From contig CAMEKL010000006.1 of assembly GCA_945921365.1 (NCBI GenBank), positions 1 to 12,678 on the forward strand: a stretch of 12,678 bases of DNA. The letters run 5' to 3'. The notes below the pieces were generated by a model, which did no database searches, had not been told where the DNA came from, and saw only the letters and a program-made list of their open reading frames with translations. Numbering within the stretch: the stretch's first letter is position 1; each line of letters begins with the position of its first letter. This document shows positions 3,449 to 12,626 of this stretch, in pieces. This stretch comes from an uncultured Bacillota bacterium (GTDB taxonomy: Bacteria > Bacillota > Clostridia > Christensenellales > UBA1242). Position numbers and translations under genes: made by a program.

Positions 3449-3477
3449 ATTCTATCACAAAGAAAAAAAATTAACAA
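3449..3477 (-). promoter_or_regulatory. Housekeeping-type promoter of rarA
   Basis: On the minus strand TTGTTA (3472-3477) and TAGAAT (3449-3454) are separated by 17 bases, a good SigA-like pair. Transcription would start near 3442, about 30 bases before the rarA ATG. The -35 box overlaps the end of the unknown gene upstream (stop at 3471-3473). This could uncouple rarA from that gene, for which no terminator is seen here. Confidence 0.6.
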
Positions 3478-4910
3478 CAATAAATCTCCTTTTTGCCATT
3501 AACTTTTTTTAAATCTATTTCTTTCAAATTAACATATTCAATGTTGTCAATTATGATTTTATTTGAAAAATTTTTCTGCTTTTTTATTGTGAAAATTTCC
3601 CCAACAAAAACAAATGTAAGAGAAAAAGTGAAATTTGCTTTTAAGAGTTTCTCAATATTTAAAATTCCATTACTTAAATGTAATCCTAAAATATCATGAA
3701 GAAAGCTGAGATAGTATTCTCCCAATTTATTCTTTTTAAGGTTAAAAAAATAATCAAAACTTGTGCATTTTTTGTTTATACATATATCATTAAAAACACA
3801 CTTAATAAAAGATTTCTTTATTTCATAATTTAAATTATTACACGTTAAATTTTGAAATTCAACATTAAAAAATTTATTTAAAGAGCAAAACAAATTAAGT
3901 TTAAATTGTTTTAACTCTCCAAAAATATTTTCAAATTTGTAATCACTTCTTATGCATGAAATTGAATATGTTTGATTGATTTTTGCAAAAAAATTAAAAA
4001 AAACAATCAAAAAACACTTTTTTTTATATTTTTTAATGCAAAAGTCAAAGTTTTTGTCTGAAAAATTAAAAAACTGCTTTTTTAAATTTAAATAACAAAC
4101 TTCAATTTTTTCTTTCTCTCTTTTAATATTTAACACATCGTCTTCAAGTTGTAAACAAAATTCAATTTCGTGTTTTTTTGATTTTGCAAATTTTAAATTC
4201 GCATCAACATATAGGTTAAAGTTTGAAAAAGTTAAGATATTTTCATCTTGTTTTGGAAACAAAATTTTTGAACTAACTATCTCACACTCGCTTCTAATTT
4301 CTTCTGATCTAAAAAATAGGTTTTTAAATTTATAGTTTTCAACTTTTTTCCCATCAACAAAAATGCCTTCACGAACCTTTTCACAATCGCCAGGATAATT
4401 TATATTTAGTTTGTTAATTTCAAAAAGAAGATTACTATTTATATCGCTTTCTAAAAAAACTTTAACATTTTTTAATCTTAAATTTAAAAGAAAATTTTCA
4501 ATTTTTTTTCTTATTTCAATTTTCGAAAGAAAAACAACAAGCAAAAACTCATTTTCAAAACTGAGTTTTCTAAGCGAAAGCAATTGTGCTTTTTGATTTA
4601 TTGTAAACTCTTTTAATTCAATTTTAAAAATTGGCTTTGTGAAATCAACATTACATTTTTCTAAGAGTGAAGTGTTAACATCTTTAAACAATTTTAAAGT
4701 GTTAGATTCCAATCTTTTTTTACATTCAAAATAATATTTCTTATCTAAAATATATAAGAAAAACTCACCACTAAAAATTTTAGCACGCTTTACAAGACAT
4801 TTTTTCTTTATAAGAATATCAATTTTGCTTTTTAAAAACAAATTTTTAACGCCAAGCAAAAAAAACAATACTGATAAAAAAACGCATGATACAAGTGTAA
4901 AAATTTTCAT
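3471..4910 (-). CDS. Unknown membrane-anchored protein downstream of spoVM
   Basis: I do not recognise this 479-residue protein. One hydrophobic segment (about residues 4-21) follows only Met-Lys and is followed by a dense basic stretch (Lys/Arg from 22 to 44). By the positive-inside rule this suggests the bulk faces the cytoplasm, although a signal-anchor with an outside body cannot be excluded. The rest is rich in Phe, Lys, Asn, Ile and Leu, looks strand-rich, and holds 18 cysteines, including the C-terminal Tyr-Cys-Cys; that many fits a reducing compartment better than an extracellular one. No catalytic motif is visible. ATG 4910 is the only start after an in-frame stop at 4962-4964, and it lacks a clear ribosome binding site. 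It begins 28 bases after the spoVM stop on the same strand, with no terminator between. A sporulation role in the mother cell is therefore inferred from position, not homology. Confidence 0.7.
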   Translation of the reverse strand: MKIFTLVSCVFLSVLFFLLGVKNLFLKSKIDILIKKKCLVKRAKIFSGEFFLYILDKKYYFECKKRLESNTLKLFKDVNTSLLEKCNVDFTKPIFKIELKEFTINQKAQLLSLRKLSFENEFLLVVFLSKIEIRKKIENFLLNLRLKNVKVFLESDINSNLLFEINKLNINYPGDCEKVREGIFVDGKKVENYKFKNLFFRSEEIRSECEIVSSKILFPKQDENILTFSNFNLYVDANLKFAKSKKHEIEFCLQLEDDVLNIKREKEKIEVCYLNLKKQFFNFSDKNFDFCIKKYKKKCFLIVFFNFFAKINQTYSISCIRSDYKFENIFGELKQFKLNLFCSLNKFFNVEFQNLTCNNLNYEIKKSFIKCVFNDICINKKCTSFDYFFNLKKNKLGEYYLSFLHDILGLHLSNGILNIEKLLKANFTFSLTFVFVGEIFTIKKQKNFSNKIIIDNIEYVNLKEIDLKKVNGKKEIYCC

Positions 4911-4938: not shown

Positions 4939-5010
4939 TTAATCTTTCTTAACGAATGGCTTTAAGAAAAAAGAAATAAATTTTGGCAGTTTAATACAAA
5001 TTATTCTCAT
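4939..5010 (-). CDS. spoVM: Stage V sporulation protein SpoVM (23 residues)
   Basis: This tiny gene encodes a 23-residue peptide starting MRIICIKLPKF and ending FVKKD. From memory, Bacillus subtilis SpoVM is 26 residues, starts MKFYTIKLPKF and ends RKD, so residues 6-11 (IKLPKF) match at identical positions, as do the basic residue 2 and the C-terminal K-D. Pro9, known to matter for curvature sensing, is kept. The remainder is an amphipathic, basic and aromatic helix three residues shorter than the B. subtilis peptide. In studied species SpoVM inserts shallowly in the outer forespore membrane, anchors SpoIVA to build the coat basement layer, and is a substrate and inhibitor of FtsH. The start is set by a near-perfect GGAGGA at 5015-5020. 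It is transcribed away from the ABC transporter operon and is followed after 28 bases by an unknown membrane protein gene. Confidence 0.87.
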   Translation of the reverse strand: MRIICIKLPKFISFFLKPFVKKD

Positions 5011-5014
5011 TTTA

Positions 5015-5020
5015 TCCTCC
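5015..5020 (-). promoter_or_regulatory. Strong ribosome binding site of spoVM
   Basis: On the minus strand GGAGGA precedes ATG 5010 by about 4-5 bases (GGAGGATAAAATG). This is the best Shine-Dalgarno match in the window and is the evidence that the 23-codon frame is translated. Confidence 0.85.
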
Positions 5021-5030
5021 AATATTACTC

Positions 5031-5039
5031 TATATTATG
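5031..5039 (-). promoter_or_regulatory. Candidate mother-cell sigma -10 element (SigE/SigK-like) of spoVM
   Basis: On the minus strand CATAATATA fits the SigK -10 pattern CATANNNTA and partly fits the SigE pattern CATACAxT. A start near 5024 would leave a leader of only about 14 bases, including the ribosome binding site. An AC dinucleotide stands 18 bases upstream, slightly beyond the SigK spacing. No convincing TTGACA-like box sits at the SigA distance. B. subtilis spoVM is mother-cell expressed under SigE. The assignment is tentative. Confidence 0.35.
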
Positions 5040-5063
5040 TTAAGAAAAATAACTTTTGTTACT

Positions 5064-6810: not shown

Positions 6811-6838
6811 AAAAAAAGCGGATATTTCCGCTTTTTTT
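6811..6838. terminator. Bidirectional rho-independent terminator
   Basis: A perfect 12-bp inverted repeat around a 4-base loop (A7 then GCGGA, TATT, TCCGC then T7) lies between the permease stop (6773) and the stop of the convergent giant gene (6837-6839). It works on both strands and has the strongest GC core of the two terminators in the window. Confidence 0.9.
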
Positions 6839-9800
6839 AATTATTTGGCGTATTTGCAATTTCATTTGGAGTGACAACAGATGAAATTGACTTATTTTCA
6901 ATTACATAATTTTCGTTGTCATATGGATATGTTTGCTTGTTTTGATCTTTTTCATAATAAGCAACAATTGTTCCATGAGAAATTGTAACATCACTTTCAA
7001 ATGAATAGTTATTGAAATATATTGAATATTTTTTAACTTCACTTGGATGAGTTAAAGAAATTTTAATAATTGAATCTTCTTCTCCTAATTCAATATCACC
7101 AGTAGGCGTTTGTGAAATGGTTGTTAATCCAACAAGTGTTCCAATTGAAACATTAGACTTTGAAGAATTTGATGTTAAACTTCCAACAAGATAAGAATTA
7201 CTTATTGTAATTTGATTTTTAATTTCCTTAAAATCTGTATCTCTTGAATAACCGTTTGTTTCAACTTCTCCTGCATATCCAATAAGACCACCAACATGCT
7301 GTCCTCCTCTTATGTCTCCCGTTATGACAACATTAACAAGTTTTCCAGTTTCCATAATTCCAACAGCTCCACCAACAAACTGGATTGAGGTTGGAAGAAT
7401 GGTTTTTGTGTTAACAACAGCATTGTTGATTTCTCCGCCAATCATAAACCCAACAATATTTCCAACTGCTTTTGGGCTGTATACGCTTTGAGCAAAAAAT
7501 GAATTTCTTCCATTGTTATCTGTAACTCTAATAGTGTTCAATTTAGCATTTGAAACAGCAACAACAACCCCGCCATAAATATCTGCTTTAATAATTTGAT
7601 TTTGTGAGGAATTAACATAGATGTTTGAAATAACAGCATTTTCCCCTGCAAAGCCAAACACAAGCCCTGCGCATTCTGCAATTGAAACATTATTGCCAAC
7701 TGAATAAACATAATCAATTTTTCCATTTCCAGTTACTGCCCCAGCAATAAGCCCTGCAAACGAAACAGAATTTGCATTGTAAACATTAAAGTTAATTGTA
7801 ACATCTTTTTCGTCTAAACTTGCTCTGTATGTGGCGTTTGTTGAAATATTTGAAGTTATATTGTTAAAGATATAACTTCCTGTTGCAAATCCAACAACTC
7901 CACCAACAAGATTTTTTCCAAGTATTACAATTCCTTCATAGTCATTTTCAAATCCATCAACACTAACATTTATTATGTTTGCACCATAAACGCTTCCCGC
8001 AACTGCACCAACTGAATTTGCATTTGGAAGGTTTATATATCTTGGAGCAAAGTTGACATTCTTTATCGAACCCTTCTGTTTGATTGAATTTCCAATTCCT
8101 GCAAAAAATCCTGCACTTTGTAAAATTTCAGAAGAATCTAAAACATAGTTTGAAATTGTGAAACTGTTTCCTTCAAGATTTCCAAGGAAATAATATTTAT
8201 AAAGTTTGCTTGATGTTGTTCCAGAATTATATGTGACATCGCAAACAAGTCTATAATATCTATTTTCGCCAACATTATAGCCACTAATGTCTGCAATTGC
8301 TTCTAAGCTGTCAACATTATAAATTAGAATTGGATTGCTTATTTCTCCAATATTTGAGGCAGTGTTATATTCATAAATTGTTTCGCCTGTTGCATCATTG
8401 TATATTTGTTGTTTAAATGTTTGCTGTCCAAAAACTAAAAGATTTGGAGAAACAAGTTCTGGCCTTCCAATAACAAGTTTTTTATAACCTGTGTAAGAAG
8501 TTCCATCTGTAAGTCTATACTCTGCTTGTGTTTCACTTGCTGGGAAGAACCAAACAGCATTTGTTTTTGATGCATCTGTTGAAAGAGCGTATTTAGAGAA
8601 CAAATTTGTGCTTGCAAACTGCTTTTGAACTGTTAGATAACTGCCAGCTGCACCATCGAATGAAATTGTAATTCCACCAGTTGAAACTTTTTTGTTCTTA
8701 ATTATTGTAAGACCTTCTATATTTTCGTTTGATCCAAGATTATGGTTCATAAATATCATATTTGAGTCTGTGTAACAGCCTTCTCTTATCTCTCCAAGGT
8801 CAAGAATAACATCTTCAACTGCATAACATTCTATGATTTTTCCTCTATTTAAAAGCCCATCAGATGTTCTTCCAATAAACACTGTGTGTCCAAGTGTTAA
8901 GTTAGACATTTTTGAAGTTGAATAAGAGTAGCTAATTTCTCCAGAGGATTCATTACTGAAAACAAATCCACTTGCAATTACAGCTGAAGATGAAACAGGG
9001 ATATTAGAATAACAATTTGAGATTTTTCCGGAGTTTGAATAAACAAAAGTTGCAAGTTTGTAGTTTGACGAAACTATCTTATAACTTGATGAATTCTCGT
9101 CAGCAGTTGCAAAAGGTGTGTTGATTGCTGGATTTGTTTGATGTAAATATTCCTCTTTATAATCCCCTGTTATATAGCTTGTGAAGATTGTTGCATCATA
9201 ATTGTTGTTTGCAACAAAACCAGCAGTTATAGAAGAGGTTGATGTTGTTTCATTAACAATAGTGCCATAAACAAATGAACTTGCAATGTTTCCGTTGTTT
9301 TCATAAACAAATCCTGCAATGTTTCCTTTTCCTTTGATTGAAATTTCAACTCTTGAATTTGTGATTGAGCCAAAGTTATTAACAACAAAAGCTGAAATAT
9401 TGCTTTCTGGAGAAATTGAAGAATCTGAAGCATCTTTATTTAAAACTTCAATTCTAGAGTTGTAATTTGTTCCAACAACAGCACAATTTGTGATAATTCC
9501 ATAGTTATTAACTGCCAAAACGCCAAAATTTATGTTGTTGAAAGCTGTTAAATCAACACGAGTTAAATTTACTTTTATCCTTATGTTAGAGAATAACGCA
9601 CCTTCTGCAATTGTTCTAAAAATTGCAAAATTATATGTTGTGTTTTCTCCAACATTTTCAACTTGCAAATTGCTTGGTAGAATAATGTTATGATTATTTC
9701 CATCAAATCCTCCAATAAGCGTTGAAATGCCAGTGAAATTATTTGGAAGAGTTATGTCTTCCATGAGAATATAATAGTTTCCTGCAACCATATTCATGAA

Positions 9801-12626
9801 TTCTTCTGGATTGTAAATTGGATATGGATTTGTTAGAGAAGTTTTTTCTGTAACTTCAAAATGCAAGTTTGTTTGACTAATTAGAATGTCATCATTGCTT
9901 CCGTTTGAAATTGTTGGAATTCCATTGTTGTAATAAACATATTTTTCAAACTTAATTATGCAAGAAGGATTTGTTGGCCTTTCAAGTTTCTTGAATTTAA
10001 CAACAAGTTTATCGTCAACAGTGCTAAATTCCATTGATTTATTTCTAACTCTGTTTTGAGCGCTTTCTAAGTTTTCAAAAGATTGCCAACCGCTATAGTA
10101 GCCTGTTGCGTCTTTAATTGAGAAATTTTTATAGTTTGATAAACTTTTTAGGAAATTTTCAACTTCAAGAGCAATAACAGCATTTGATTTATCGTAAATC
10201 AAAATTTCGTCATTCAAACTGACTTCAAAAGTGAATTCATCTCCAATTGCAGAGTGATGAATGCCATCATTAAAATCTAAAATAATATCTAAGTTATTTT
10301 CATTTGTTTTAACAATAAAGTAAACAACTTCAATGTGGAAATTAAATTCAGCGCTTCTAATAATGCCATTATTTGTAACTTTTTCACCATAAGCGGTGAT
10401 AGTTACATTTCTGTCTGTAAAATTTGTTTCACTTGTTACAACAAGCCTATATTTGCCATCAACTTTTTCAAGTTTTAACAAATTGTCAATTTGATTGAAT
10501 TTAAAAACAATTTCGCCATCTGTATATGTTTTTGTTGAATTGTTAAATTGCAAATTTGATCCAGTTTCAAAGCCTTTAACATTTAAATCTAAACTATATG
10601 TTTTTCCTACAGCAACTTTAAGTTTTTCTGTTTCTGTTGTGTTAGCAACTCCATCAACTGAAATTTTAACCCCTGGCAAATGTTCGGCATAGAAATCATA
10701 TCTTATTGGGTTATATATCTTTTCGCCATTCTTATCGTAAATGTCAACAACAAATGAAACAACCTCGCCATCACTTATTCTTGCATCAAGCCCAGCTCTA
10801 ATTGAAAATCTGCCATTTAATCCTAATTGTTCAAGTGTTTCTTTTGAAATTTTAAAGCCATTTTTTGTTTTTGTTATAACTTGAATCTCTGAGAAATCTT
10901 CTCTTTTATAAAGATTCTCGAAAATAATATTGTAGGCATTTGTGCTTAAATTTGAGACTTCAATATATTCATAATCACTGTAGTTTGGAACAATTAAAAA
11001 TTCAAAAAGCCCTGCAACTCCTGGAACAATTTTATTTGTTGAAACATATGAGAAATTTTCTCCGCTATCTGTTTTACTTTCAAAATTATAGAAATAAACA
11101 TCAACATTGTTTGGAGTTTGTGGATTAAATGTTATGTTTAGTTCGCATTTTTTCTTGTTTGAAGAAATTATTTCAATTTTATATTTTTCTTCTTTTGTTA
11201 TGTTTTTATCTTTAAGTGAAACATAAATTTTGAAATTTTTATTGTTTCCCTCAGGAACTTTAACACAGTCAATTTCCTCTGTTGCTAGATAAACTCCATC
11301 AACAAGTTTAAGTTTATTTATTGTTAATATTTCATCTTCTTTTTCTGTGTTAACAACTATATCAAACACTGCAGTGTATATTGGCATAATTTTAACATCT
11401 GTTTGATTTGAAGAAATATTCTTTGTTTGCTTTTCAACTTTAATTGTTAATTGTATGCCTGAAAGCTCAATTTCATTTAATTGTAAATTGTCAATAAACA
11501 ATGTTCTATAAACATTTCCATCTATTTTTGTTTCAAAATATGGAATAAACTTGATGATTTTTGAATTTGTTATGTTATTAAAAGAAATTTGATATGCATC
11601 ATAAGAAATTCCAAAGAAATTTATTAAATCTGAACTATTTCCAGCAAATAAAAGTTTTTCATCTTCTAAAATTGCAACTTTAATCTGTGAACTAGAAGAA
11701 TAGCCTTTCAAGTTAAACTTTTCCAAATAGTTGAAATAGAGCATATAACTTGAATTAAAATCTAAAACTTTTTGTGAATTTGTGAGAACTTGATTTGAAT
11801 TTTTATCCGCACTTAAGAATAAATCAAAATTTGAAACATAGTTAACAGCATAAATATAAAATTCTTCTTTAAGTGTTTTACTAAATTCGCTTGTGACAAC
11901 AATTTTCACAACGCCAGTTCCAACAACTTCAAAATAGTTTCCATCGATTTTAAGAATATTTTCGTTTTCTGAAGTTAAAATGATTGGCGTGTTTGAATTT
12001 ACAACGCAATTAACATATTTTGAAATTAAATATTTGTTTTCTTTTTCAAATTTGTTTTGTTCGTTTGCATCAAGCTTTTGATGATAGTAAAGATAGAAAA
12101 CTAAATCTGAACCTTCTTCTGACTGTAATTTGTTATTTTTGCCGTCTTCTGCAAGTGTTATTGTTATCTGTGTTGGTGGAAGAATGATGAAATCAACACC
12201 CGTTTCTTCCCCTTCTTCTGCTGCATCTTTTACTGCTTTAACTTTGCTTATAAATTCTTCTAAGGTTGTGTCTTTTAATATATAAGCTGGATCATCACAT
12301 AAATTTTCAACAAAATTTAAACTAACATAATTAACTGGCGCTTCGCTGTTTTTAACATAACCAAAGAATGCATTCTCTTCAGAAAAAGTTTCGTCAATAA
12401 CATTTAAAGTGTTTCCATTAACATCACAAATTGCAACATTTTGCGAAAAAGCACCACTATCATCAACAGCAACAATTCTTCCAACGTTACATGTTGAAAT
12501 AGAAATTCCTAAAATATTGCCATAATATTCTGCATTTTCAACTGATAAACTGTTAAAATTCTTTGAAACATAAGATATAACTGTGTTTTTTGTTATGCTT
12601 TCAGACTGCCTGCTTGCATCTCTCAC
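6837..12626 (-). CDS. Giant surface-type protein with Ig-like domains and GLUG-repeat beta-helix, probably missing its N-terminus
   Basis: This is a 1929-codon open frame. The N-terminal half (1-900) is strand-rich with Ig-like modules. The clearest is at about 150-262, with a Big_2-like end (SENENILKIDGNYFEVVGTG); another is at about 650-767. From about 933 a beta-helix begins with the pattern YNPEEFMNM then FDGNNHNI, and repeats at about 1435 (YNVDSLEAIADI). GLUG-type repeats follow both segments. Such architecture is typical of adhesins and large cell-envelope proteins of low-GC Bacillota; the ligand is unknown. There is no signal peptide, no LPXTG motif and no terminal membrane span. The only start is GTG 12624-12626 without a ribosome binding site, just after an in-frame stop at 12639-12641; the first Met is residue 294. 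The real N-terminus therefore probably lies upstream in another frame, making this the C-terminal part of a frameshifted or broken gene. Confidence 0.8.
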   Translation of the reverse strand: MRDASRQSESITKNTVISYVSKNFNSLSVENAEYYGNILGISISTCNVGRIVAVDDSGAFSQNVAICDVNGNTLNVIDETFSEENAFFGYVKNSEAPVNYVSLNFVENLCDDPAYILKDTTLEEFISKVKAVKDAAEEGEETGVDFIILPPTQITITLAEDGKNNKLQSEEGSDLVFYLYYHQKLDANEQNKFEKENKYLISKYVNCVVNSNTPIILTSENENILKIDGNYFEVVGTGVVKIVVTSEFSKTLKEEFYIYAVNYVSNFDLFLSADKNSNQVLTNSQKVLDFNSSYMLYFNYLEKFNLKGYSSSSQIKVAILEDEKLLFAGNSSDLINFFGISYDAYQISFNNITNSKIIKFIPYFETKIDGNVYRTLFIDNLQLNEIELSGIQLTIKVEKQTKNISSNQTDVKIMPIYTAVFDIVVNTEKEDEILTINKLKLVDGVYLATEEIDCVKVPEGNNKNFKIYVSLKDKNITKEEKYKIEIISSNKKKCELNITFNPQTPNNVDVYFYNFESKTDSGENFSYVSTNKIVPGVAGLFEFLIVPNYSDYEYIEVSNLSTNAYNIIFENLYKREDFSEIQVITKTKNGFKISKETLEQLGLNGRFSIRAGLDARISDGEVVSFVVDIYDKNGEKIYNPIRYDFYAEHLPGVKISVDGVANTTETEKLKVAVGKTYSLDLNVKGFETGSNLQFNNSTKTYTDGEIVFKFNQIDNLLKLEKVDGKYRLVVTSETNFTDRNVTITAYGEKVTNNGIIRSAEFNFHIEVVYFIVKTNENNLDIILDFNDGIHHSAIGDEFTFEVSLNDEILIYDKSNAVIALEVENFLKSLSNYKNFSIKDATGYYSGWQSFENLESAQNRVRNKSMEFSTVDDKLVVKFKKLERPTNPSCIIKFEKYVYYNNGIPTISNGSNDDILISQTNLHFEVTEKTSLTNPYPIYNPEEFMNMVAGNYYILMEDITLPNNFTGISTLIGGFDGNNHNIILPSNLQVENVGENTTYNFAIFRTIAEGALFSNIRIKVNLTRVDLTAFNNINFGVLAVNNYGIITNCAVVGTNYNSRIEVLNKDASDSSISPESNISAFVVNNFGSITNSRVEISIKGKGNIAGFVYENNGNIASSFVYGTIVNETTSTSSITAGFVANNNYDATIFTSYITGDYKEEYLHQTNPAINTPFATADENSSSYKIVSSNYKLATFVYSNSGKISNCYSNIPVSSSAVIASGFVFSNESSGEISYSYSTSKMSNLTLGHTVFIGRTSDGLLNRGKIIECYAVEDVILDLGEIREGCYTDSNMIFMNHNLGSNENIEGLTIIKNKKVSTGGITISFDGAAGSYLTVQKQFASTNLFSKYALSTDASKTNAVWFFPASETQAEYRLTDGTSYTGYKKLVIGRPELVSPNLLVFGQQTFKQQIYNDATGETIYEYNTASNIGEISNPILIYNVDSLEAIADISGYNVGENRYYRLVCDVTYNSGTTSSKLYKYYFLGNLEGNSFTISNYVLDSSEILQSAGFFAGIGNSIKQKGSIKNVNFAPRYINLPNANSVGAVAGSVYGANIINVSVDGFENDYEGIVILGKNLVGGVVGFATGSYIFNNITSNISTNATYRASLDEKDVTINFNVYNANSVSFAGLIAGAVTGNGKIDYVYSVGNNVSIAECAGLVFGFAGENAVISNIYVNSSQNQIIKADIYGGVVVAVSNAKLNTIRVTDNNGRNSFFAQSVYSPKAVGNIVGFMIGGEINNAVVNTKTILPTSIQFVGGAVGIMETGKLVNVVITGDIRGGQHVGGLIGYAGEVETNGYSRDTDFKEIKNQITISNSYLVGSLTSNSSKSNVSIGTLVGLTTISQTPTGDIELGEEDSIIKISLTHPSEVKKYSIYFNNYSFESDVTISHGTIVAYYEKDQNKQTYPYDNENYVIENKSISSVVTPNEIANTPNN
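7265..8015 (-). repeat. GLUG-type repeat block 2 in the giant protein
   Basis: About eight units are seen at protein positions of roughly 1539-1787. Examples are VGAVAGSVYGANIINVSV, VGGVVGFATGSYIFNNI, FAGLIAGAVTGNGKIDYVY, CAGLVFGFAGENAVISNI, VGNIVGFMIGGEINNAV and VGGAVGIMETGKLVNVVI, then VGGLIGYAGEV. These are closer to the canonical GLUG pattern (GGLxGxxxxGxIxN) than block 1. Confidence 0.8.
9000..9530 (-). repeat. GLUG-type repeat block 1 in the giant protein
   Basis: About six degenerate units of 20-30 residues are seen at protein positions of roughly 1033-1238. Examples are FGVLAVNNYGIITNC, FVVNNFGSITNS, IAGFVYENNGNIASS, FVYSNSGKISNCY and SGFVFSNESSGEISY. The pattern is hydrophobic G-F-V, N-x-G, I-x-x-S/C, matching the GLUG motif that forms rungs of a beta-helix. 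Repeats are degenerate in DNA. Confidence 0.7.

Follow-up and report, generated by a model that had tools for sequence, protein, structure and literature searches.

The question raised by this locus is whether an open reading frame of only 23 codons encodes SpoVM and, if so, at what stage of sporulation the peptide is made. SpoVM is a textbook protein placed by membrane curvature and is thought to recruit SpoIVA first. The frame lies in a stretch of 12,678 nucleotides, here called the window, from an uncultured member of the Bacillota (GTDB lineage Bacteria; Bacillota; Clostridia; Christensenellales; UBA1242), and was analyzed together with the rest of its genome and 59 relatives. Galperin et al. 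(PMC3533761) point out that annotations seldom recognise SpoVM and that in some clostridia none was found.

A short spoVM gene and its conservation

The frame occupies positions 4939..5010 of the minus strand (MRIICIKLPKFISFFLKPFVKKD), with its ATG start codon at 5010-5008 and its TAA stop codon at 4941-4939. A ribosome binding site, GGAGG (5016..5020, minus strand), is found 5 nt ahead of the ATG. The initial annotation had described a hidden spoVM gene with a near-perfect ribosome binding site, and both are present as claimed. A TTG four codons upstream would extend the product to 27 amino acids, but the alignment of relatives favours the ATG. In a profile search, NCBIfam model SpoVM_broad (NF033436) matched residues 1-17 of the peptide (E 3.1e-6), although its 27.1 bits do not reach the curated cut-off of 31, which no match in the 60 genomes passed. 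The peptide, which with its 23 residues is within the size range of SpoVM (under ~30 amino acids), was the sole match to the SpoVM profile at E<=1 in its own genome (E 2.3e-4). A sequence search of the PDB with the peptide gave no match.

With the NCBI model, 24 peptides from the order were collected and aligned, and the resulting profile was searched against the same 60 genomes. It detected spoVM in 47 genomes at E<=0.1. At E<=0.01 the number is 46, of which 22 had not contributed to the alignment used for building the profile. Pro9 is present in all 46 peptides, that of the window included, position 6 is always Ile, Phe or Val, and Cys5 and Lys7 occur in 44 and 40 of the peptides. According to its figure legend, Pro9 is also the sole fully conserved residue of the published SpoVM alignment. 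In the window Cys5 is encoded by codon 5 (4996-4998, minus strand). SpoVM of B. subtilis has Thr at this position; it shares with the window peptide the core IKLPKF, including Pro9. A second proline, encoded in the window by codon 18 (4957-4959, minus strand), is found in all five members of the genus and in one further genome (G013), and falls inside the presumed amphipathic helix.

The frame is kept in all four sampled relatives from the genus, so that the first condition under which the initial annotation would have been refuted, a frame not conserved in close relatives, did not arise. In the first 22 codons, changes between the five members are most frequent at the third codon position in all ten pairs, with for instance 0, 0 and 4 changes at the three positions between G002 and G004, and 3, 1 and 10 between G003 and G004. 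The excess is less clear in the four pairs that involve the species of the window itself, which differs from G001 by 6, 3 and 7 changes (7 nonsynonymous and 4 synonymous codons). Of the SpoVM features to which the initial annotation had drawn attention, Pro9 stands, but the K-D ending does not: the four sister peptides continue into a charged C-terminal tail that the window species lacks, and the ending was therefore ruled out as a homologous feature. The suggestion of a naturally shortened SpoVM was rejected as well, since the order shows lengths of 21-47 amino acids (26 being the commonest among the 46 peptides) and five of the 46, G022 among them, come out at 21-22 amino acids, start codons having been assigned by script and none having been found for at least G013 and G022. 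Shortening was accordingly dropped as the main point of interest.

Because of the profile match, its being the only such match in its own genome and the detection of spoVM in 46 of the 60 genomes, the frame is not a chance one. It is near certain that it represents a real spoVM gene, encoding an overlooked but ordinary protein.

Gene neighbourhood and sporulation genes

The usual spoVM neighbourhood is rpe - thiN - spoVM - asp23 - dak2. This order is found in G036, from another family, and in slightly different form in G023 (rsgA, rpe, spoVM, asp23, dak2), but it is not that of the window gene, which has a divergent ABC transporter pair on one side and, on the other, a gene for a protein of 479 amino acids. 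The usual location is a common trait and not a defining one for the SpoVM family. The arrangement of open reading frames in the window is repeated in G002, G003 and G004; the contig of G001 stops just upstream of spoVM. The transporter pair matched SaoA/SaoP- and taurine/sulfonate-type models with scores below the cut-offs. Elsewhere in the window a frame of 1929 amino acids (6837-12626, minus strand) gave no NCBIfam or Pfam match at E<=0.01.

The 479-amino-acid gene (3471..4910, minus strand) is unannotated and lies on the same strand, 28 nt downstream of spoVM. A terminator between the two genes was looked for and not found, and the gene is probably an operon partner, co-transcribed with spoVM. 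Its product has a predicted N-terminal helix and no significant match to any protein family; one other relative was recovered among 7,996 database candidates scored, and none was confirmed in named genomes. A six-row profile, five rows of which come from the genus genomes themselves, found the protein in all five genus genomes and in none of the other 31 genomes of the family; a single weak match (E 0.001) came from elsewhere. The proteins of the window and its sisters are only ~21-23% identical, and by these comparisons the gene is restricted to the genus and fast-evolving. The predicted structure has a mean pLDDT of 38, with moderate confidence confined to parts of residues 1-168, and the model is not usable. 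The product is a candidate lineage-specific spore protein.

The initial annotation had taken the organism for a probable endospore former and had named spoIVA and sigE/sigK as genes to be looked for in the same genome. Indeed, the assembly of the window (549,671 bases, 61% complete) contains spoIVA, whose score of 692.9 bits exceeds the cut-off, together with a sigE-type gene (323.4 bits, under a cut-off of 348.6), a gene with a SipL domain and a partial spoIIIAA, which supports endospore formation. The second refuting condition of the initial annotation, a genome lacking spoIVA and the sporulation sigma factors, did not arise either. Seven named relatives of the spoIVA product, among them those from Lutispora, Oceanirhabdus and Anaeromassilibacillus, are 48-52% identical to it, which points to the Clostridia. 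A search for sigK in this 61% complete assembly found none; a second, sigK-type gene is present in each of the four genus relatives. Among the 60 genomes 55 carry spoIVA, 45 of them with spoVM (E<=0.01) and 10 without, so that 45 of the 46 genomes with spoVM also have spoIVA. The one exception, G057 (74% complete), combines spoVM with a strong sigK-type gene. The other four genomes without spoIVA (G038, G039, G045 and G056) also lack spoVM (best E 0.054 with the order profile), have no match to the sigK model at 1e-40 and only weak matches to the sigE model (best ~1e-18), and show no SipL-domain or spoIIIAA match. Assemblies of the family (G000-G035) are ~0.8-1.4 Mb, apart from the incomplete G000 and G001, which are smaller, and they keep spoIVA and sigE- or sigK-type genes. 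In G025 (contig C1, ~424002-424703, minus strand) the spoIIIAA match lies in an open frame of 24,268 amino acids, perhaps unresolved or odd sequence.

Promoters of spoVM and spoIVA

Upstream of the window gene a -10 box of the mother-cell type, CATAATAT, is found at 5032..5039 (minus strand), 29 nt before the ATG. The dinucleotide AC at 5058..5059 (minus strand), 18 nt before this box, fits the sigma-K type of -35 element by the rule given in PMC3789822, according to which sigma-E and sigma-K have the -10 box in common and a Gln or Arg residue in SigE and SigK reads the differing -35 boxes. The site thus reads AC-N18-CATAATAT, with AC and not ATA at -35: the combination of an AC-type -35 with a CATA-type -10, as in the sigma-K regulon, is present, and the ATA-type -35 with CATA-type -10 of the sigma-E regulon is absent. 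The specificity residues are retained in the proteins examined. Among 20 sigma proteins picked from matches to the sigE and sigK models, all 11 of the SigE type have Gln (ISQSYISR) and all nine of the SigK type, four of them from genus relatives, have Arg (ISRSYISR).

A common site in the family consists of AC, a gap of 16-18 nt and CATANNNT. In the first 23 spoVM regions of the family AC-N14-18-CATANNNT was found in 17, whereas 200 shuffles gave 0.56 on average and never more than 4. The comparison was then made between 32 spoVM genes and 24 spoIVA genes fetched from the 36 family genomes. Upstream of spoVM, 20 genes have AC only (gap 16-18), three have both -35 types, two have neither and seven have no CATANNNT; upstream of spoIVA, 17 have ATA only (gap 14-16), one has both, two have neither and four have no CATANNNT. 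The exact sigma-K signature AC-N17-CATANNNT precedes 18 of 32 spoVM genes versus none of the 24 spoIVA genes, and the sigma-E signature ATA-N16-CATANNNT precedes none of the spoVM genes versus 18 of the spoIVA genes. For the AC/ATA split among the 20 and 17 clear cases a Fisher value of 6e-11 was obtained, which is not to be read as a probability because gap widths were picked after inspection of the data and the genomes are related. Nine of the 32 spoVM genes are without a clear box, and in two of the 20 with AC only (G015 and G024) the -10 box lies just 13 nt ahead of the chosen ATG. Outside the family AC with CATA was found at six of 14 spoVM genes and ATA with CATA at none. Of the further sigma-E controls, neither sipL, from 20 family genomes, nor spoIIIAA, at 23 loci of the family, gave a clear result. 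The planned sigma-K controls were rare: dpaA was found in nine of 60 genomes and one of the 36 of the family (below the cut-off), and yabG in none of the 60, and so in none of the family.

A strict form of the motif, AACAN{16,17}CATANNATA, gave 31 matches in the five genus genomes versus 14 with a reversed control. Thirty of these could be given a locus, and 15 overlap an open reading frame of at least 120 amino acids. Two matches, against zero in the control, come from the genome of the window itself, and one of them is the spoVM site; over the genus the motif precedes spoVM in G000, G002, G003 and G004. It also precedes glmS in three of the five genomes (G002, G003 and G004; two of the three proteins were identified), the site in G002 also overlapping a frame on the opposite strand. 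In C. difficile glmS is described as controlled by SigK, with a SigK and a SigA promoter (PMC7438776), and the glmS sites serve as a positive control for the motif. Furthermore, the motif was found upstream of a small protein of 89-103 amino acids (SLFEFA...) in G001, G002 and G003 (L211, 1561-1827, plus strand; L218, 1555-1839, plus strand; L227, 1164-1472, minus strand). This conserved protein matches no family significantly at curated cut-offs and is a putative sigma-K target. Another match in G003 lies upstream of a gene for an SsuA-like substrate-binding lipoprotein (L230, 476-1471, minus strand).

The favoured explanation, which we consider likely, is that the window gene encodes the SpoVM coat anchor and that this is made late in the family, from a sigma-K-type promoter. 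The main competing explanation, possible but rather doubtful, holds that it is an ordinary early SpoVM under sigma-E, with AC/CATA being read by sigma-E in these bacteria or acting as a second promoter beside an unrecognised one. It draws on the sigma-E dependence of spoVM in B. subtilis (PMC517825) and in C. difficile, where it was established by RNA-seq and qRT-PCR (PMC5607322), on the -10 box common to both factors, and on the nine family genes without a clear site and the three with both -35 types. It is opposed by the opposite distribution of the two signatures over spoVM and spoIVA within the same family, and by the retained Gln and Arg of SigE and SigK. In the literature searched, which covered few subscription papers, no report of a sigma-K controlled spoVM was found.

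A vegetative sigma-A promoter, with the site being an ordinary -35/-10 pair, is very unlikely. A sigma-70-like sequence, GTAACA-N17-CATAAT (9/12), does overlap the site, and among 14 spoVM genes from outside the family TATA and CATA follow AC-N16-18 equally often (four genes each). However, sigma-70-like matches occur at chance level (two found, 2.4 expected), and although C makes up just 11% of this DNA, it stands before ATA at AC-N17 in 21 of the 32 family spoVM genes, with A in seven and T in two. It is scarcely conceivable that the frame is a chance one, or a leader peptide of the 479-amino-acid gene, without a role in the spore. The sub-threshold profile score and the position 28 nt ahead of a longer gene would suit such a reading, but the peptide is found in 46 of 60 genomes with an invariant Pro9, spoVM lies in the rpe-asp23-dak2 region in G023 and G036, and the 479-amino-acid gene was found in no family genome beyond the genus.

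Timing of SpoVM in coat assembly

With a sigma-K-type promoter at spoVM and a sigma-E-type promoter at spoIVA, SpoVM is probably made late, after SpoIVA; we infer this computationally, from the promoters of the family. Regulation of spoVM looks different across the family and perhaps across the order. For the order as a whole, a division in which spoVM is part of the late sigma-K programme and spoIVA remains with the early sigma-E genes is slightly favoured.

By homology, the peptide would be membrane-bound and, in the mother cell, provide the anchor for the spore coat's basement layer. Its N-terminus and the kink at Pro9 may bring the amphipathic helix to rest on the outer membrane of the forespore; there the peptide would recognise the curved surface, bind the SpoIVA ATPase and help the layer of SpoIVA and SipL to hold and encase the forespore. 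Made late, after SpoIVA, SpoVM would have the task of completing or securing encasement rather than that of recruiting first. As in B. subtilis, a very short peptide is found in a genome with spoIVA. It differs in length (23 residues versus 26 in B. subtilis; PMC3533761), in the near-invariant Cys5 of its order and the position-18 proline of its genus, and in its sigma-K-type promoter, spoVM of B. subtilis being turned on by sigma-E (PMC517825). The resemblance to C. difficile lies in a clostridial SpoVM that keeps Pro9 and is accompanied in the cell by SpoIVA and a SipL-domain protein. Unlike the sigma-E dependent spoVM near rpmB in C. difficile (PMC5607322), the window gene has a promoter of the sigma-K type, and its neighbours are a divergent ABC transporter pair and a gene restricted to the genus. 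In C. difficile SpoIVA encases the forespore without the need for SpoVM, according to the same paper.

The analysis yields 46 natural SpoVM sequences, among them those of a genus with a second proline in the helix, and an order profile that detects spoVM genes scoring below the curated annotation cut-off. If SpoVM is indeed made late, coat assembly in these bacteria would begin without it and SpoVM would be a late clamp or completion factor. Such timing would turn around the order that textbooks give for the basement layer, and it would fit the finding that C. difficile largely copes without SpoVM, whose partial dispensability there would then join a wider pattern. If a whole group of spore formers with such small genomes expresses SpoVM only late, the hierarchy of coat assembly would not be fixed.
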